From: Flavobacteriales bacterium
GTDB taxonomy: Bacteria; Bacteroidota; Bacteroidia; Flavobacteriales_D; Sanyastnellaceae
Direction: 5' to 3'
Length of the DNA stretch: 54,197 bases
Assembly (NCBI GenBank): GCA_027491215.1
Contig: JAIXWP010000074.1
Coordinates: 1 to 54,197 of the forward strand
Below the pieces are notes generated by a model. That model was given only the letters and a program-made list of their open reading frames with translations, made no database searches and was not told the DNA's origin. Numbering within the stretch: position 1 is the first letter of the stretch; each line of letters starts with the position of its first letter. Positions 5,891-54,197 of the stretch are shown here, piece after piece. Made by a program: the position numbers and the translations under genes.

Positions 5891-7243
5891 ATGGGAAAGA
5901 AATTATTACTCGAACACATTGATGTACCAGGTATTAATACCCTAAGCGTATATCGTTCAAAAGGCGGTTATACCGCATTGGACAAAGCATTAAAGACAAT
6001 GACACCTGACGCGGTAGTCGAAGAAGTTAAAACTTCTGGTCTACGCGGAAGAGGTGGCGCGGGATTCCCTACAGGAATGAAGTGGAGCTTCCTAGCAAAA
6101 CCAGAAGGTGTGCCTCGCTACGTCGTTTGCAACGCGGACGAATCAGAGCCAGGTACTTTCAAGGATAGATACTTGATGGAAAAAATTCCTCATCTTCTGA
6201 TCGAAGGAATGATCGTATCAGGTTTTGCACTAGGCGCAAAGTCTTCATACATCTATATCCGCGGAGAGTACTTCTATGTAGCACGTATTCTAGAACAAGC
6301 CATTGCCGAGGCATACGAAGCAGGTCTTCTAGGTAAGAATATTCTCAATTCAGGATTCGACCACGATTGCTATGTACAAGTTGGTGCAGGAGCTTATATC
6401 TGTGGAGAAGAAACTGCATTGCTAGAATCACTTGAGGGCAAGCGCGGAAACCCACGTATTAAGCCTCCGTTCCCTGCTGTGGCGGGACTTTATGGCTGTC
6501 CTACAGTTGTAAATAACGTTGAAACCATTGCTGCAGTTGTACCAATCGTAAATATGGGCGGCGCTGCATATGCGGGCATTGGTGTTGGAAAAAGTACTGG
6601 TACAAAATTGATTTCTGCTTCAGGCCACATCAATAAGCCTGGTGTTTATGAAATCGAACTAGGCGTGCCTGTTGAAGAATTTATTTATAGCGATGAATAT
6701 TGCGGAGGTATCAAAGGTGATAGAAAACTTAAAGCAGTTGTTGCTGGTGGTTCTTCTGTTCCAATTCTTCCTGCAGACTTAATATTAAAAACTGCCAATG
6801 GCGAGCCTCGTTTGATGTCTTACGAAAGCCTTGCGGATGGCGGATTTGCTTCAGGCACCATGTTGGGTTCTGGTGGATTCATCGTAATGGATGAAAGCAC
6901 TAGCATCGTAAAAAATCTATACACTTTCACTCGTTTCTATCATCACGAAAGCTGCGGACAATGCAGCCCATGTCGTGAAGGAACCGGATGGATGGAGAAG
7001 ATTCTTCACAAAATCCTTCATGGTCATGGTTCAATTAGCGATGTGGATCTTCTTTGGGACATCCAATCTAAAATTGAAGGAAAAACAATTTGTCCACTTG
7101 GAGATGCTGCTGCATGGCCTGTTGCCAGCGCTATTCGTCACTTCCGTGGAGAATTTGAAGAGTTCGTTAGAAATGGTCACTCGATTAAAGATGTGCGCCA
7201 CTACTATCGTTTGAACGGATTACCAGAACCTGCTTACTCATAA
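5891..7243 (+). CDS. nuoF: NADH-quinone oxidoreductase subunit F (NADH/FMN site)
   Basis: Binds NADH and FMN and carries cluster N3, so it is the electron entry point. The glycine-rich nucleotide motif is GRGGAGFPTG at residues 53-62, followed by NADESEPGTFKDR (81-93) and GAGAYICGEE (165-174). The 4Fe-4S ligands are C355, C358 and C361 in CGQCSPC, plus C401 in ICPLGDA. The ATG at 5891 gives 450 residues; an in-frame TTG three codons upstream would overlap the nuoE stop. Spacing to nuoG is 4 bases. Confidence 0.97.
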   Translation: MGKKLLLEHIDVPGINTLSVYRSKGGYTALDKALKTMTPDAVVEEVKTSGLRGRGGAGFPTGMKWSFLAKPEGVPRYVVCNADESEPGTFKDRYLMEKIPHLLIEGMIVSGFALGAKSSYIYIRGEYFYVARILEQAIAEAYEAGLLGKNILNSGFDHDCYVQVGAGAYICGEETALLESLEGKRGNPRIKPPFPAVAGLYGCPTVVNNVETIAAVVPIVNMGGAAYAGIGVGKSTGTKLISASGHINKPGVYEIELGVPVEEFIYSDEYCGGIKGDRKLKAVVAGGSSVPILPADLILKTANGEPRLMSYESLADGGFASGTMLGSGGFIVMDESTSIVKNLYTFTRFYHHESCGQCSPCREGTGWMEKILHKILHGHGSISDVDLLWDIQSKIEGKTICPLGDAAAWPVASAIRHFRGEFEEFVRNGHSIKDVRHYYRLNGLPEPAYS

Positions 7244-7247
7244 TAAA

Positions 7248-8270
7248 ATGGCAAAAGTTACTATCGACGATGTAACCATTGAAGTTCCAGACGGAACTAC
7301 AATTTTACAAGCAGCAAGAATGATTGGTGGAGATTTAGTACCACCAGCCATGTGCTATTACTCAAAATTGAAAACGAGCGGTGGATATTGCCGCACGTGT
7401 ATCGTGAAGGTAGAACAGGGCTCTGCTAAAGATCCTCGTCCAATGCCTAAGCCTGTGGCTTCTTGCCGTACCACCGTGATGGATGGTATGGTAGTGAGAA
7501 ACATTACTTCACCTGAAGTATTGGAAGCTCGCTCTGGAGTAGTAGAATTCCTATTGATCAATCACCCTCTCGATTGTCCTGTTTGTGACCAAGCAGGAGA
7601 ATGTCACCTTCAGGACCTTGCTTACGAGCACGGTAAAGAAGAAACTCGTTATGAGTTTGAAAGACGTGAGTTCGAACAAATCGATATTGGAGATAAAGTA
7701 CAGCTTCACATGAACCGCTGTATCCTTTGTTACCGTTGTGTGAAAGTTGCTGATCAGCTTACTGATGGCCGTGTTCATGGTGTATTGAACAGAGGAGATG
7801 TTGCAGAAATTTCAACCTACATTCAAAACAGTATCGAGAATGATTTCTCTGGAAACGTAATCGATGTTTGTCCAGTAGGAGCACTAACTGATAAGACATT
7901 CCGCTTTAAAAGCCGCGTTTGGTACACTAAGCCAGTAGACGCACACCGTGATTGTCCGCATTGTACTGGAAAAGTTCGTCTTTGGTACAAAGGCGATGAT
8001 GTACTGCGCGTTACTGCACGTAAAGATAAATATGGTGAAGTTGAAGAATGGATTTGTAACGAATGTCGCTTCGACAAGAAAACTACAAGCGACTGGGTAA
8101 TTGAAGGTCCTTCTAAGGTAGATCGTCACAGTGTTATTTCTGCAAATCATTATGAAAACCTTCGTGTTTTGAAGGCAACAATCGATAGACAGAAAAAAGC
8201 ACTTCCTCATGGCGAAAAAGTTAATCTTGGCCAAGGTGCTCTAGACCCAAATAACATTCACGGAAAATAA
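7248..8270 (+). CDS. nuoG: NADH-quinone oxidoreductase subunit G, short form
   Basis: Fe-S wire of the peripheral arm. At 340 residues it is about half the length of E. coli or Thermus NuoG. It retains the 2Fe-2S ligands (C36, C48, C51, C73), the His-Cys3 cluster (H106, C110, C113, C119) and a 4Fe-4S cluster (C158, C161, C164, C208). It then has two CX2C pairs (C236/C239 and C270/C273). The large molybdopterin-oxidoreductase-like domain is absent. The reading frame ends cleanly and nuoH follows after 17 bases, so this looks like a natural short form rather than a broken gene. I believe short NuoG occurs in other Bacteroidota, but could not check. Confidence 0.93.
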   Translation: MAKVTIDDVTIEVPDGTTILQAARMIGGDLVPPAMCYYSKLKTSGGYCRTCIVKVEQGSAKDPRPMPKPVASCRTTVMDGMVVRNITSPEVLEARSGVVEFLLINHPLDCPVCDQAGECHLQDLAYEHGKEETRYEFERREFEQIDIGDKVQLHMNRCILCYRCVKVADQLTDGRVHGVLNRGDVAEISTYIQNSIENDFSGNVIDVCPVGALTDKTFRFKSRVWYTKPVDAHRDCPHCTGKVRLWYKGDDVLRVTARKDKYGEVEEWICNECRFDKKTTSDWVIEGPSKVDRHSVISANHYENLRVLKATIDRQKKALPHGEKVNLGQGALDPNNIHGK

Positions 8271-14156: not shown

Positions 14157-15520
14157 TGAAAGAGCTTATCATCACCTCGCTTTTAGGTATATCTATCCTT
14201 GCACTTGACATTGTTAAACTTCGCAAGGCTATACTTCCTGTAATCATTCTTGGTTTACTCGGAACAATTACTTCTTGTATTCTCGATTGGGGACACAATG
14301 AAAATCCTTTCAATAACAACATGTTATTGTTTGATAACTATGCACTAGGTTTCATAGTAATTCTTAGCGCTGTCACACTTGTTTGGTTCCTCATCAGCAC
14401 CGACCATTTCAGCGGCAGTGAATCACGTACCGATTTATATGCGCTTGTTGCTTTCAGCTTTGCTGGGGCAATGATTCTAGCCGCATATACCAACATGGTG
14501 ATGCTCTTCTTAGGGATCGAAATTCTATCTATTCCGATGTATGTGCTTGCAGCCAGCAATAAAAAAGAATTGATTTCGAATGAATCTGGATTTAAGTACT
14601 TCTTCTTAGGAGCACTTGCAAGTTCGATTCTGTTGTTCGGTATTGCCCTTATTTATGGCGCTACAGGAAGCTTTGATTTACCAACCATCGCAACAGCTAT
14701 CACTACCAACGGTTCTGGTACAATTCTAACAGCAGGACTCTTAATGATTATTGTAGGATTTGCATTCAAGGTGAGTATCGCTCCTTTCCACTTCTGGGCT
14801 CCAGATGTTTATCAAGGTGCACCTACTATGGTAACGGCTCTTATGTCGACACTTGTAAAAGGTGCTGCATTTGCAGCAATGTTCAAGTTGTTCGCAACAG
14901 CCTTCGCTCCAACTTTGGACTTCACTCAGACCATATTTGTTGTGATGAGCATCATTACTTTGCTTGCTTCAAACGCTATGGCGTCTATCCAAGCTAATAC
15001 AAAGCGTTTGCTTGCATACTCTAGCGTATCGCATGCAGCTTTTATGCTTGCGGCTGTAATGCTTGCCAACACTATTAGTCCAAGTGTTTTGATGTACTAC
15101 GTACTCGTGTATAGCGTTTCTTCGATTGTCACTTTTGCAACATTATATCATATCTCTAAAGCACAAAACGGTGCGGAAGGTTTTGATGCATTCAAAGGTT
15201 TGGTAAAGCGTAATCCTATTCTCGCGGGAGCTATGACATTGGCTCTTTTGTCAATGGCTGGTATTCCTCCATTGAGCGGCTTTATGGCAAAGTATTTTAT
15301 CATTGGAGCTGTCATTCAAGCTGATCAAATTTGGTTAGCAGTGATCATGATCTTGAGCTCAGCAATTGGTATTTACTACTACTTGAAAATCATCATGGCA
15401 ATGTTTACACCGATTGAAAATGCGGGTAGAATTGTCATCACAGATTTACAACGCATTCTTTTCATCATTCTTTCGATTGCGATGGTTGCGCTATTCTTTG
15501 TAGCTGCTTTCGTAAAATAA
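14156..15520 (+). CDS. nuoN: NADH-quinone oxidoreductase subunit N (antiporter-like)
   Basis: Third antiporter-like subunit and last gene of the operon (454 residues, about 14 helices). Family marks are FLGIEILSIPMYVLAAS with the conserved glutamate, FKVSIAPFHFWAPDVYQGAP and the later lysine-containing helix AMASIQANTKRLLAYSSVSH. Only 8 bases separate its stop from the stop of the convergent lptD gene. I see no terminator hairpin there, so overlapping transcripts from the two strands are likely. Confidence 0.96.
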   Translation: MKELIITSLLGISILALDIVKLRKAILPVIILGLLGTITSCILDWGHNENPFNNNMLLFDNYALGFIVILSAVTLVWFLISTDHFSGSESRTDLYALVAFSFAGAMILAAYTNMVMLFLGIEILSIPMYVLAASNKKELISNESGFKYFFLGALASSILLFGIALIYGATGSFDLPTIATAITTNGSGTILTAGLLMIIVGFAFKVSIAPFHFWAPDVYQGAPTMVTALMSTLVKGAAFAAMFKLFATAFAPTLDFTQTIFVVMSIITLLASNAMASIQANTKRLLAYSSVSHAAFMLAAVMLANTISPSVLMYYVLVYSVSSIVTFATLYHISKAQNGAEGFDAFKGLVKRNPILAGAMTLALLSMAGIPPLSGFMAKYFIIGAVIQADQIWLAVIMILSSAIGIYYYLKIIMAMFTPIENAGRIVITDLQRILFIILSIAMVALFFVAAFVK

Positions 15521-23018: not shown

Positions 23019-23765
23019 ATGAAATTACTTGAAGGAAAAGTTGCTATCATCACCGGTGCTTCTCGTGGAATCGGAAAGGGAATTGCTCAGAAATTTATCG
23101 AGCAAGGCGCAACAGTAGTTTTCACTTATGCTTCATCAGAAGAAAAAGCAAGAGCACTTGAAGCAGAACTTACTGCTCAAGGTGGAATTGCAAAAGGATA
23201 TAAAAGCGATGCTGCAAACTTCGAAGCAGCGCATGCTTTGATCGACGAAGTTGTAAAAGAATTTGGAACCGTAGATATTCTCGTAAACAACGCAGGTATC
23301 ACAAGAGATAATTTGCTCATGCGTATGAGCGAAGAACAATGGGATGAAATCATGACGGTCAATTTGAAATCAGTTTTCAATTTGACAAAGGCTGTTATCA
23401 AACCTATGCTCAAAGCTAAATCAGGCTCTATCATCAACATGAGTTCTGTAGTTGGTGTAAAAGGAAATGCAGGACAAGCAAACTACGCAGCATCTAAGGC
23501 AGGGATCATCGGCTTCACAAAAAGTATTGCCGCTGAACTAGGCTCTAGAAATATTCGTTGCAACGCTATTGCTCCTGGTTTCATCGAAACTGAAATGACT
23601 GGTGCTTTAGATGAGAAAGTAGTGCAACAATGGCGCGACGCTATTCCATTGAAGCGTGGTGGTTCTGCAGAGGATGTAGCAAATGCAACGCTCTTCCTAG
23701 CTTCAAACATGAGTGCCTACGTAACAGGACAAACATTGCATGTGTGCGGCGGAATGCTAATGTAA
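23019..23765 (+). CDS. fabG: 3-oxoacyl-[ACP] reductase
   Basis: NADPH-dependent short-chain dehydrogenase of fatty-acid elongation. The 248-residue protein has the cofactor motif TGASRGIG (12-19), NNAG (90-93), the catalytic triad S143, Y156, K160 and the C-terminal segment APGFIETEMT. These match FabG closely, though other SDR roles are possible because no acyl carrier protein or other fab genes lie nearby. It is 32 bases downstream of the HdrB-like gene. Its stop codon is followed, after one base, by a heptamer-repeat array. Confidence 0.88.
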   Translation: MKLLEGKVAIITGASRGIGKGIAQKFIEQGATVVFTYASSEEKARALEAELTAQGGIAKGYKSDAANFEAAHALIDEVVKEFGTVDILVNNAGITRDNLLMRMSEEQWDEIMTVNLKSVFNLTKAVIKPMLKAKSGSIINMSSVVGVKGNAGQANYAASKAGIIGFTKSIAAELGSRNIRCNAIAPGFIETEMTGALDEKVVQQWRDAIPLKRGGSAEDVANATLFLASNMSAYVTGQTLHVCGGMLM

Positions 23766-23766
23766 C

Positions 23767-23815
23767 TAGTGACTAACGACAAGTGACTAGCGACTAGTAA
23801 CTAGTAACCAAGAAC
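23767..23815. repeat. array of seven 7-bp repeats (TAGYRAC-type)
   Basis: Seven consecutive heptamers fill the gap between the fabG stop (23765) and the next ATG (23820): TAGTGAC, TAACGAC, AAGTGAC, TAGCGAC, TAGTAAC, TAGTAAC, CAAGAAC. The first two are identical, as a 14-base string, to the start of the larger element at 32577. The array is rich in CTAG, usually a scarce tetranucleotide in bacteria. Confidence 0.85.
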
Positions 23816-31387: not shown

Positions 31388-32482
31388 TTAGTCGATGAGA
31401 ATCGATATGGATGCGACGGCATAAACATTATCATTTACATAGTAATCACCACGACGATACTCTTTTCCTTGCGAGCGAAGCCAACGCGTTTCCATGCGGC
31501 ACGCAATGCGTTTGCTTGGTTTAAAATCAAAATTGATAGAAGAACCCTGAGTTACAAAACCATCGTCATCTCTTGATGGCACCACTACTTGGTTTTTATC
31601 CTCATAGTATTCTCCTCTCACTGCCACTGCCCACTTATCCGACATTTGATAGCGCACAATCACCACAGGAGTGTACCACAATTGATAGAATTCGCTGTCT
31701 TTGAATTCTTGTTGTCCACCCACATCAATAGCTGCAGTCAATCCCAAGCGTTCTGTTAATTGAAATTGTCCATAGAGGTTACTGAAATATCTCATGCGAC
31801 GATTCGAATCCGGAAGATCAGATCCTGCATAGGTAGCCCAACCCACAGTTGTCTTCTTCGATGGTGTGTACTTTAAGAGCGTCGAAATGCTTGGTCTATT
31901 GTTGCCAGTAGATTTCACAATGCGCTGCCATCCATTGGTCACCATTGCCATCAATTCCCATTTTTCATTAGGTTGGTGCGTGATCTTTCCTCCAGACATA
32001 TAGTAGGGGCTATACTCCGCCATGAAAGAGCGTGTAAGTGTCCAGTTATCAAATGATACAACCGATTCAAATCCGATGTGCGAATTGAAGATCCCCGCAT
32101 CCAGCCACCACGTATTCTTTTTATTCAAAGCGATTCCGACATTCGCTTCCATCACATTACGAAACAAACTTTCGTCGGGTGTCGTGCTGTAATTTAAAAT
32201 AGGATAGAGTCCTGCTTGTAGCGCTACATTTCCGCGATACTTCGAGTGTTTCAAGTTTGCTTTAAGCATCGCATGATTCAGGCCCATTTCATTATGGCGA
32301 GTATAATTTACGCCTTGATAATAGAGATATCGTTCATCCGGTTGATTAGCAGTGTATGCATAATAAGCCTCAGCAAATGCCGACCATTTGATTGTCGGTT
32401 CACCCGCCCAAGCCGAGTCGATCTGAGCGCTGGAGAAAATCGAAACAAATCCGATAAAGAGAGATAGTATAATTTTTTTCAT
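31388..32482 (-). CDS. outer-membrane beta-barrel protein (BBP2/OmpL-like)
   Basis: A 364-residue protein with a signal peptide (MKKIILSLFIGFVSIFSSAQ) and a body of alternating amphipathic strands. It includes FAEAYYAYTANQPDERYLYY near the mature N-terminus and GGKITHQPNEKWELMAMVTN in the middle. This matches the putative beta-barrel porin type 2 seen often in Bacteroidota. The C-terminus (VYAVASISILID) lacks the classical final phenylalanine. Function beyond an outer-membrane channel-like barrel is unknown. Confidence 0.8.
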   Translation of the reverse strand: MKKIILSLFIGFVSIFSSAQIDSAWAGEPTIKWSAFAEAYYAYTANQPDERYLYYQGVNYTRHNEMGLNHAMLKANLKHSKYRGNVALQAGLYPILNYSTTPDESLFRNVMEANVGIALNKKNTWWLDAGIFNSHIGFESVVSFDNWTLTRSFMAEYSPYYMSGGKITHQPNEKWELMAMVTNGWQRIVKSTGNNRPSISTLLKYTPSKKTTVGWATYAGSDLPDSNRRMRYFSNLYGQFQLTERLGLTAAIDVGGQQEFKDSEFYQLWYTPVVIVRYQMSDKWAVAVRGEYYEDKNQVVVPSRDDDGFVTQGSSINFDFKPSKRIACRMETRWLRSQGKEYRRGDYYVNDNVYAVASISILID

Positions 32483-32576: not shown

Positions 32577-32830
32577 TAGTGACTAACGACTAGATACTAA
32601 CTACTAGTTTAGTTACTAACTACGAGATACGAGTGACTAGAGTAGCGACTAGCGAGATAGTTTTACAGTTATCTATCAAGGACTATCTGTCTACACCTCT
32701 AGTATCTACTCTAGTCACTAGTCGTTAGTATCTAGTAACTAAGTTTGTCACTAGTCGTTAGTAACTAGTAACTGAGCTAGTCGTTAGTATCTAGTAACTA
32801 AGTTTGTCATTTGTCATTTGTCATTTGTCA
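32577..32830. repeat. large heptamer-repeat element with two inverted arms
   Basis: The 390-base gap between the barrel gene and the TPR gene is mostly this element. The left arm (32577-32660) is a run of TANNNAC-type heptamers (TAGTGAC, TAACGAC, TAGATAC, TAACTAC and others) broken by two 5-base units. The right arm (32683-32809) is the same vocabulary inverted (GTCACTA, GTCGTTA, GTATCTA, GTAACTA), again broken by 5-base units. A short non-repeat centre (32661-32682) is bordered by AGATAG and CTATCT. The right arm contains a perfect 33-base direct repeat (32718-32750 and 32777-32809, offset 59). About a dozen CTAG tetranucleotides lie in 254 bases. It then runs into a TTTGTCA array. Confidence 0.85.
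32803..32830 (+). repeat. four tandem copies of TTTGTCA
   Basis: Four perfect heptamers at 32803, 32810, 32817 and 32824. They form the promoter-proximal edge of the larger repeat element. Each copy begins with TTTG, the -33 consensus of Bacteroidota promoters. Confidence 0.95.
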
Positions 32831-32848: not shown

Positions 32849-32872
32849 AATACCTGAACACTTTTGGTGCTT

Positions 32873-34273
32873 ATGAATGAAGAAGACCGCGACCAGCATA
32901 ATGCTGAAGAACTGGTGAATCGGTACGAAAAGATGGTGGCGAACGATGAATCGTATTACTTCGATATTGAAGAATTCGAAGGAATAGTAGATTTCTATTG
33001 TGATAACAACAAATTCAGCCAAGCCCTCACTGCGATTACCTACGCCTACACGTTATTCCCTGAGAATACCTCTATGATGCTGCGCGAAAGTCAGATCTTG
33101 GCAGGCATGGGTCGACTTACAAAAGCACTCGCTCGTTTAAAAATATTGGAAAAATTCGAACCCCAAAATCAAGAGGTCATCCTCACCATGGGTTCAATCT
33201 ATAGTCAGCTTCGCGAACACAAACAAGCCATTGACCTATTCAAGCGTGCACTCGAAATGGGTGGTGATGAGATGGAAGAGGAAATTTACCTCGAAATCGC
33301 GTTGGAGTACGAAAACATGGACCGCTTTGACAAAGCCATCGAAACACTCCAAGAAGCGCTCACCAAAACTCCAGATAACGAGACTCTTCTTTACGAACTC
33401 GCTTATTGCTTCGAAACCGCAGACCGCACGGCGGAATGCATCGAATATTATTTGGCCTTTATCGAGACACACCCTTTCAGCTTCCCTGCTTGGTATAACC
33501 TCGGAAATGCCTATCAAAAATTAGAACAACTGGAAGAATCCATTGAAGCATACGATTACTGTATCGCGATTCAAGGAGATTTCGCTCCAGCATATTATAA
33601 CAAGGCCCACGCATTATTTAAAATGGATAAGTATGCGGAAGCCATCGCTGTATTTGAAGAAACGTATGCTTACGAACCCCCACAAGCGCCCATCTACTGT
33701 CACATTGGTGAGTGCTTTGAAAAGATGGAAGAGTTTGATAAAGCACTTTTTTATTACAGAAAATCAATTCAAAACGATGAATACTATGCCGATGCCTATT
33801 TGGGTATTGGTATGGTGATGGATCTTCAAGGCAAAACCCCTGAGGCCATTTCTTACATCGAACGTGCGATCGAATTGGAACCTGAAAATCCAGACTACCA
33901 TTTGTTCTTGGTAGAAGTATTGAAAAAAGTTGGACACCTCGCTGAAGCAGAGGCCATCACCGAAACCCTCGTGGTGCGCTTCCCTGACAACGAAGATGTC
34001 TGGCTCGATCACAGTGATTTATTCTTCGTACAAAAAAACTATAACCAAGCAATTGCCGTCATCAATGAAGGATGGCAAAAGAATCCGCAAAGTTCGGTAT
34101 TGGGTTATCGCAAAATAGCGTACCTCCTAGCCTCAGAGAAAAAGGAAGACGCATACGATTTAATGTTACGTATGCACCTCAATGATCCCGCAGGCATGGA
34201 AGAATTGGTAGAGTATTACCCCGCCATCAAAGACGACCTCTTTTATGCGGATTTGATGAGAAATAAACAGTAA
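32873..34273 (+). CDS. TPR-repeat protein
   Basis: A 466-residue soluble protein built of about ten consecutive tetratricopeptide repeats, with typical A-W/Y-L-G-N-A-Y spacing (for example FPAWYNLGNAYQKLEQ and PIYCHIGECFEKMEEFDKAL). It has a strongly acidic composition and no signal peptide or membrane segment. Such proteins are protein-protein scaffolds; the partner is unknown. ATG at 32873 is chosen over in-frame TTG/GTG codons 6-9 bases upstream, because the promoter and acidic N-terminus (MNEEDRDQ) fit. The gene sits directly downstream of the heptamer element. Confidence 0.88.
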   Translation: MNEEDRDQHNAEELVNRYEKMVANDESYYFDIEEFEGIVDFYCDNNKFSQALTAITYAYTLFPENTSMMLRESQILAGMGRLTKALARLKILEKFEPQNQEVILTMGSIYSQLREHKQAIDLFKRALEMGGDEMEEEIYLEIALEYENMDRFDKAIETLQEALTKTPDNETLLYELAYCFETADRTAECIEYYLAFIETHPFSFPAWYNLGNAYQKLEQLEESIEAYDYCIAIQGDFAPAYYNKAHALFKMDKYAEAIAVFEETYAYEPPQAPIYCHIGECFEKMEEFDKALFYYRKSIQNDEYYADAYLGIGMVMDLQGKTPEAISYIERAIELEPENPDYHLFLVEVLKKVGHLAEAEAITETLVVRFPDNEDVWLDHSDLFFVQKNYNQAIAVINEGWQKNPQSSVLGYRKIAYLLASEKKEDAYDLMLRMHLNDPAGMEELVEYYPAIKDDLFYADLMRNKQ

Positions 34274-53900: not shown

Positions 53901-53977
53901 ATTCGAAATTCGAGATTCGAGATTCGGGATTCGGGATTAGGGATTCGGGATTCGGAATTCGGGATTCGGAATTCGAA
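53901..53977. repeat. eleven tandem 7-bp units (ATTCGRR type)
   Basis: Eleven uninterrupted heptamers: ATTCGAA, ATTCGAG twice, ATTCGGG twice, ATTAGGG, ATTCGGG, ATTCGGA, ATTCGGG, ATTCGGA, ATTCGAA. All have the form ATTNGRR, with N being C in every unit but one. A decayed unit (ATGCGGC) follows. Confidence 0.95.
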
Positions 53978-53993
53978 ATGCGGCTCTCCACGG

Positions 53994-54070: not shown

Positions 54071-54197
54071 GCGCCTCATAAGAATGCAAAAAAGTCAAAA
54101 AAGTGGCGAGCGGTGCGGTCTAGGAGATTTCGAATTGAGAATTGAGAATTCCGAATAAGCGAAGCGGAATTCCGAATTAGCGAAGCGACATCGAGAA

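Follow-up and report, generated by a model that had tools for sequence, protein, structure and literature searches.

Inverted heptamer arms at IVP genes and a putative IVP-less copy of such an element in a Flavobacteriales genome

Introduction

Among described systems, the intervening sequences (IVS) of rRNA genes come closest to the element reported here, since they place inverted arms around a gene for an S23 or 23S rRNA-intervening sequence protein (IVP; PF05635). In Coxiella burnetii, three GACAGAT heptamers and one GACAGAA precede the S23p gene, and a stem of 28 bp is described (PMC4990558). The available part of that paper notes the heptamers for Coxiella and draws no general link from them. 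PF05635 is the most common Pfam in the data set of PMC10053308, the accessible text of which describes it as Avd-like.

Dispersed heptamers are also known from several bacterial groups. The words GGGAATC in Xanthomonas and GGGGATT in Nostoc are dispersed, mostly intergenic, prefer runs of four units and lie near the end of the upstream gene, and inverted pairs of GGGAATC number 70 and 75 in two Xanthomonas genomes (PMC4692102). The four units are tied there to G-quadruplexes, and the portion of the paper available to us mentions neither XCC0516 nor intervening sequences. Heptamers of the word TAACTGA occur in Beggiatoaceae, cyanobacteria and five Bacteroidetes, again as intergenic arrays, whose patchy occurrence was taken as a sign of transfer; unlike the arms described below, they are direct repeats of one word and lie mostly before start codons (PMC4679880, as far as accessible). 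The same partial text draws no link to IVP.

Among open-licence papers, we found no report that connects IVP genes with inverted heptamer arms. Such a connection joins two open puzzles, the function of the IVP/S23 four-helix-bundle family and the origin of dispersed intergenic heptamer repeats. Here we describe a block of inverted heptamers that, on balance, is probably a copy, without IVP, of a palindromic element resembling intervening sequences, one that would sit at gene 3′ ends, form an RNA hairpin and spread with the help of IVP; our confidence in this reading is modest.

Architecture of the element

The window, that is, the whole stretch of 54,197 nucleotides analysed, contains the element at 32577-32830. 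A sequence scan shows two inverted arms of TAGTNNN heptamers facing each other across a 62-nt core, followed by a TTTGTCA array at the right edge. Parsed into units, the left arm is read on the minus strand and comprises an outer block of four TAGTNNN heptamers (32579-32606) and an inner block of four (32612-32639; TAGTCAC, TCGTATC, TCGTAGT and TAGTAAC), with pentamers at 32607-32611 and 32640-32644. The right arm, on the plus strand, is preceded by the pentamer TACTC (32707-32711) and consists of a first block of four heptamers (32712-32739; TAGTCAC, TAGTCGT, TAGTATC and TAGTAAC), a second block of four (32745-32772) bounded by pentamers at 32740-32744 and 32773-32777, and a third block of three (32778-32798). 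With its two blocks of four, the left arm follows the plan of the right on the opposite strand. The last 28 bases of the element (32803-32830, plus strand) are four TTTGTCA heptamers, a word that also forms the arms of other IVP genes in this genome (L175, L176 and L177). Comparison of seven genome copies defines a conserved core of 80 nt, ACTAGAGTA...TACTCTAGT (32636-32715). The stretch between its conserved edges measures 62 nt (32645-32706) and not the 22 bases that the initial annotation had given for the centre of its opposed arms.

The self-match of the element peaks most strongly at 33 bases (0.534) and again at 7 bases (0.506). The former corresponds to a repeat unit of 33 bp, composed of four heptamers and a pentamer (4 × 7 + 5), while the latter exceeds the maximum of 0.372 reached in 1000 dinucleotide shuffles. 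The initially annotated parse into heptamer words with opposed arms is therefore real. The 5-base spacers noted with it are also present and are more regular than described, as pentamers mostly come after each four heptamers.

CTAG occurs 12 times in the 254-bp element, in line with the earlier count of about twelve, against 85 times in the remaining 53,943 bp of the window and a mean of 4.9 (maximum 10) in 1000 dinucleotide shuffles of the element. The rarity attributed to this tetramer is only mild in the window, where 15 of 256 tetramers are rarer and the 85 occurrences outside the element compare with 113 expected from trinucleotides. We regard the CTAG sites as a by-product of one arm word, in which C precedes TAGT; other words at IVP genes, for example TAATTCG and TTTGTCA, contain no CTAG.

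The word composition is a local one. Across the whole window, TAGT/ACTA pairs spaced by 7 are found only here, at 23765-23811 and once at 14337. The stretch at 23765-23811 is a second, short TAGT-heptamer array, which touches the stop codon of the ORF that precedes it (23019-23765). A CRISPR array consists of identical repeats of at least 23 nt with unique spacers, and the repeat structure of the element rules out such an array. ARAGORN found no tRNA in the window. Heptamers of another type, ATTCGGG, form an array at 53901-53983 (score 101), followed at 54127-54187 by AATTGAG/ATTCCGAA repeats at the contig end.

Folding of the arms and core

As RNA, the element strand folds with -89.3 kcal/mol (z -5.6), and as DNA with a z of -4.65; in both cases none of 200 shuffles was equally stable. 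Inverted termini able to form a long stem are a feature shared with rRNA IVS, seen here in the folding of the window element and in the perfect 36-bp arms of a Nostoc element described below. In the window element, the complementarity of the arms is 71% over 75 nt. The seven cores have an invariant skeleton in common, and no covariation was found at their variable positions, with 71.4% of cells paired compared with 78.6% in shuffles. As the variable positions do not covary, this skeleton seems to be kept as sequence rather than as helix. The cruciform proposed for the arms is thus borne out in that they can fold, but the incomplete complementarity and the lack of covariation in the core argue that a perfect cruciform is not what is conserved.

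Copies in the genome and in relatives

The genome that contains the window (G000) comprises 3.17 Mb in 150 contigs and is 99.95% complete. The pattern TAGTNNNTAGTNNNTAGT has 45 matches in it, against 0 for the reversed control. The core, 79-80 nt long, is present at seven places, including the window, and is absent from all 113 other genomes of the family searched. A covariance model of the core recovers the same seven places and has no match in six other genomes. The heptamer pattern TAGTNNNTAGTNNNTAGT has at least one match in 29 of 60 relatives, where the matches are mostly few and consist of other words. Two genomes of the same genus have 121 and 314 matches, partly in long arrays at contig ends; in one of them (G002), positions 1-390 of contig C1 (L111) belong to a long TAGTCAC/TAGTCGT satellite of contig ends. 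A blastn search of the element against plasmids gave no match.

At the element loci of G000, there are 40 runs of at least three TAGT-type heptamers, a count in which one array at a contig start (L042) is entered on both strands. Exactly four units are found in 29 runs, three in 7, five in 2, and six and seven in 1 each. At ~7200-7520 of its contig (C39), L042 also shows AACCAAT/AACCAAG heptamers interspersed with a recurring palindromic unit, TCCCTCGATACGCTCGC..GCGAGCACTCGGGAACC, which belongs to another repeat family.

The preference for four units is shared with the Xanthomonas and Nostoc heptamers, as are dispersal, a mostly intergenic position and, for Xanthomonas, inverted pairs; unlike those words, as far as the available text describes them (PMC4692102), TAGTNNN has no G-tract. 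G-quadruplex heptamer repeats are ruled out for the present element on this ground. The four-unit preference is seen here in words unable to form G-quadruplexes, which therefore cannot be its general cause.

The element fits the definition of long simple sequence repeats (STRR), being made of tandem heptamers that are intergenic and dispersed, and its four-unit inverted blocks exceed that definition. As plain tandem repeats, the arrays would have grown by replication slippage, and IVP genes would have landed in or beside them. Long one-word arrays in G002 are consistent with slippage, as is a proposal, cited in the accessible part of PMC4679880, that traces the unit length of 7 nt to polymerase contact. 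In the seven full cores, however, every one of the 14 arms has exactly four units and a pentamer at the inner edge, which slippage would not maintain, and we consider this origin unlikely.

Position relative to genes

The window copy lies between a gene for a beta-barrel porin (PF07642, BBP2; 31388-32482, minus strand) and one for a tetratricopeptide-repeat (TPR) protein (32864-34273, plus strand), both of which read away from it. Mechanically called ORFs place 9 of the 22 TAGT places in the genome between convergent genes, 6 between codirectional and only 2, the window copy being one, between divergent genes, with 5 at contig ends; two L053 elements in this count have the same neighbours. Given the divergent genes, the window copy need not be part of any transcript. 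The stop codon lies inside the element or touches it at 18 of the 27 gene ends that face elements (left 10/15, right 8/12), a number that is partly built in, because TAGTNNN units spaced by 7 provide TAG in all three frames. On the opposite strand, the arms provide TAG or TAA wherever ACTA precedes G or A.

In both same-genus relatives, we found no clean empty site corresponding to the window copy. Upstream of the TPR gene, both have no TAGT array and, by eye, the end of another, codirectional frame. Because both relatives differ from G000 in the DNA preceding the TPR gene, and a divergent porin gene stands here, the block possibly marks a point of rearrangement.

The placement at gene 3′ ends, as counted above, and a core skeleton conserved without covariation would both suit a fixed, non-mobile site for host regulation, either a binding array or a bidirectional 3′-end hairpin. 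Such a site would not be expected to lack its core in both same-genus relatives, nor to be missing at the same place in both, as is the element on contig C22 described below, and no common theme was noticed among the neighbouring genes. We judge a regulatory site to be quite unlikely. Many intergenic imperfect palindromes at gene 3′ ends would also fit REP/BIME sequences, which are moved by a Y1 (RAYT) transposase. Profile searches of 24 genomes for Y1 and RVT_1 matched in 9 and 5 genomes, respectively; neither G000, in spite of its near-complete assembly, nor G002 has a Y1_Tnp (PF01797) match, making REP/BIME palindromes extremely improbable.

An IVP gene at a TAGT element

On contig C22 (L041), a 114-aa ORF lies after a full TAGT element and before a TAGT half-arm. 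The ORF is a member of PF05635 (E 5.3e-25), the IVP family. A TAGT-armed IVP gene is also found on contig C19 of G002. The loop of the window copy, unlike these kin, contains no IVP gene, and IVP-less TAGT copies outnumber the IVP-bearing one. Its arms are nevertheless of the type seen on either side of IVP genes.

Modelled with a mean pLDDT of 96, the C22 IVP is predicted to form four helices; it is closest in structure to the S23 proteins 2RLD (Z 19.4) and 2GSC (Z 17.1). Its predicted four-helix fold is also that of Avd from diversity-generating retroelements (Z 13.5-14.2), which lies only about 1 Z unit above the best generic helical bundle (12.9 and below). In Foldseek, the matches to Avd have E values of 0.26 and up, and the identity is ~10%. 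Unlike Avd, this IVP is encoded in a genome without an RVT_1 (PF00078) reverse transcriptase. No RVT_1 match was obtained in G000 or G002, and a diversity-generating retroelement is ruled out on this basis.

The likeness to rRNA IVS, inverted arms round an S23/IVP gene (PMC4990558, in its available part), is accompanied by clear differences. The present elements lie between protein genes, occur in many copies, most of which lack IVP, and every IVP-bearing element has a word of its own. Neither the window nor six element loci gave an Rfam match, to rRNA or otherwise, and the neighbours are protein genes. Because the element is found outside rRNA and, in the window copy, is without an IVP gene, we describe it as intervening-sequence-like rather than as an rRNA intervening sequence.

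Over ~110 bases, the last part of contig C22 matches contig C115 exactly, as judged by eye; the composite element on C115 has no IVP gene, and the overlap reflects either an assembly branch or two strains. The IVP genes on contigs C137 and C68 both lie at contig ends, and their compared parts are identical; G000 may thus have six IVP genes rather than seven.

Inverted arms at IVP genes across the order

PF05635 is present in at least 94 of 150 genomes of the order. We sampled 121 distinct IVP genes from 119 loci, 59 from a profile search and 60 drawn among the matches listed, so that the sample is short of weak IVP genes. Among arrays no more than 300 bp away, those of period 7 lie upstream of 25 genes and downstream of 30, on both sides of 15, which gives 40 of 121 genes in total; the other 81 have no such array nearby, which counts against the intervening-sequence-like reading. 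Period-8 arrays at the same distance number 10 upstream and 12 downstream (7 on both sides), those of period 6 number 2 and 1, and those of period 11 number 1 and 1. No arrays of periods 5, 9 or 10 were found within 300 bp of the 121 genes, and at 1.1-1.4 kb period-7 arrays fall to 2 and 2. Some IVP genes (L121, L156, L192, L196, L207, L210, L212 and L213) have arrays of period 8 and not of period 7.

Where arrays occur on both sides, their words are, by eye, as a rule reverse complements, and the word varies between elements. By the same inspection, L192 and L128 also show mixed orientations, and L207 and L213 are direct. Ignoring period, an inverted score of at least 14 was reached at 64 of 115 IVP genes, compared with 5 of 690 swapped pairs and none of 105 far flanks; direct-orientation matches at score 14 were seen at 16 of the 115. 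Within the same stretches of DNA, inverted arms accompany 34 of 68 IVP genes and 15 of 425 other genes (p 4e-22), while any period-7 array accompanies 16 of 68 and 30 of 425, respectively (p 1e-4). Solo arrays are therefore common beside other genes, as slippage would have it, and it is the inverted pair that is the mark of IVP genes. This specificity of inverted arm pairs stands against slippage.

Among 18 IVP pairs at 78-98% identity, dN/dS was computable for 14 and was at most 0.14 in all of them (dN 0.016-0.104, dS 0.155-1.95), dS being saturated in the other four; the pairs are not independent. All 14 ratios show that IVP is under purifying selection. Within the genus, elements that have a word in common also have the most similar IVP: the TAGT-armed proteins of two species are 71% identical, and those with the TGACAA word 78-79% between C97 and its kin, compared with 14-57% for IVP genes with other words or none. 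In a Mantel test over 40 word-bearing genes, the similarity of words showed no significant relation to that of the IVP sequences (p 0.15). An apparent rise of shared 7-mers with IVP identity was discarded, as it is confounded by related loci.

Proposed mode of persistence and spread

IVP is a candidate for the protein that would read the 7-base modules, its gene lying beside or between such arms. If the window block is indeed an IVP-less intervening-sequence-like copy, elements of this kind would be transcribed, often forming the last part of the transcript of an adjacent gene. The arms would then pair into a long RNA hairpin, a possible substrate for RNase III, whose cleavage of rRNA intervening sequences has been reported. 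Insertion at a gene end would be tolerated because the arms hold stop codons in every frame. Binding of IVP to the arms, or to their RNA, would allow IVP-bearing and IVP-less copies alike to persist and spread. Counting against this reading are the solo arrays beside 30 of 425 non-IVP genes, the lack of covariation in the core, the non-significant relation between word and IVP, the divergent setting of the window copy, and the absence of a target duplication at both empty sites described below. Together, IVP and its own arms form a directly testable pair.

Plasmids, other phyla and empty sites

A tblastn search located IVP in 25 plasmid records, of which we analysed 19 loci (14 cyanobacterial, 2 from Candidatus Chlorohelix, and 1 each from Bernardetia, Treponema and Monoglobus). 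For 17 of these 19 genes, arrays of period 7 are found at a distance of up to 300 bp, in 10 cases on both sides, and the arrays fall to 2 and 2 at 800-1100 bp; no other period from 5 to 11 was seen at them. An inverted score of at least 16 was reached at 15 of the 19, a value for which swapped pairs are no clean control, since several Nostoc elements have words in common. The Monoglobus gene has neither a period-7 array nor an inverted score of 16, and the arms in the L241 plasmid match perfectly in inverted orientation over 40 bp and contain no heptamers.

In Nostoc sp. C052, the arms form a perfect inverted repeat of 36 bp that includes four TAATTCG units, and the IVP element folds as RNA with a z of -8.5. 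Plasmid pC052_A has this element at a position occupied by ~0.2 kb of different sequence in two further plasmids of the strain and in plasmids from two other strains; in pC052_A, the stop codon of the upstream gene now lies within an arm. Arms and IVP gene are present or absent together, which is not what slippage would predict. The C22 site offers a similar comparison. In both same-genus relatives it consists, by eye, of a gene that we take to be LuxE-like, a hairpin and a convergent response-regulator-like frame, with no element. In G000, the element lies between the end of the LuxE-like gene and the hairpin, and the response-regulator-like frame ends in an arm.

Dispersed copies with inverted ends and a near-constant core length, in which those without IVP outnumber the IVP-bearing TAGT copy, would also be expected of a MITE, whose terminal inverted repeats are moved by a DDE transposase encoded elsewhere. 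Target duplication is absent at both sites compared, C22 and Nostoc sp. C052, and the gene with such arms encodes IVP rather than a transposase; we hold a MITE to be very unlikely.

Taken beyond the intervening-sequence-like copy in the window, the association can be put in a wider form, to which we give less than even weight and which we advance tentatively. IVP genes with inverted heptamer or octamer arms may form one cross-phylum class of minimal mobile elements without a transposase or reverse transcriptase of their own, in which the Avd-like protein would drive copying by reading the arms. The heptamer repeats dispersed in cyanobacteria, Xanthomonas, Beggiatoaceae and Bacteroidota would then be its arms, solo copies and relics, and IVP-type arms may account for the source of many unexplained 7-base repeats. 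The arms also suggest that IVP genes in restriction, methylase and cas clusters may be armed insertions and not working parts.

Several of the plasmid IVP genes lie inside or beside clusters of defence type. The order cas2-IVP-cas1 is found in L243 and L247, and the IVP gene adjoins cas1 in L251. It lies between hsdS and hsdR in L248 and between DUF1156 and Swt1 genes in L245 and L250. In L236, L238 and L249 it adjoins DNA methylase genes, and in L244 and L252 it is located by XisI or XisH genes.
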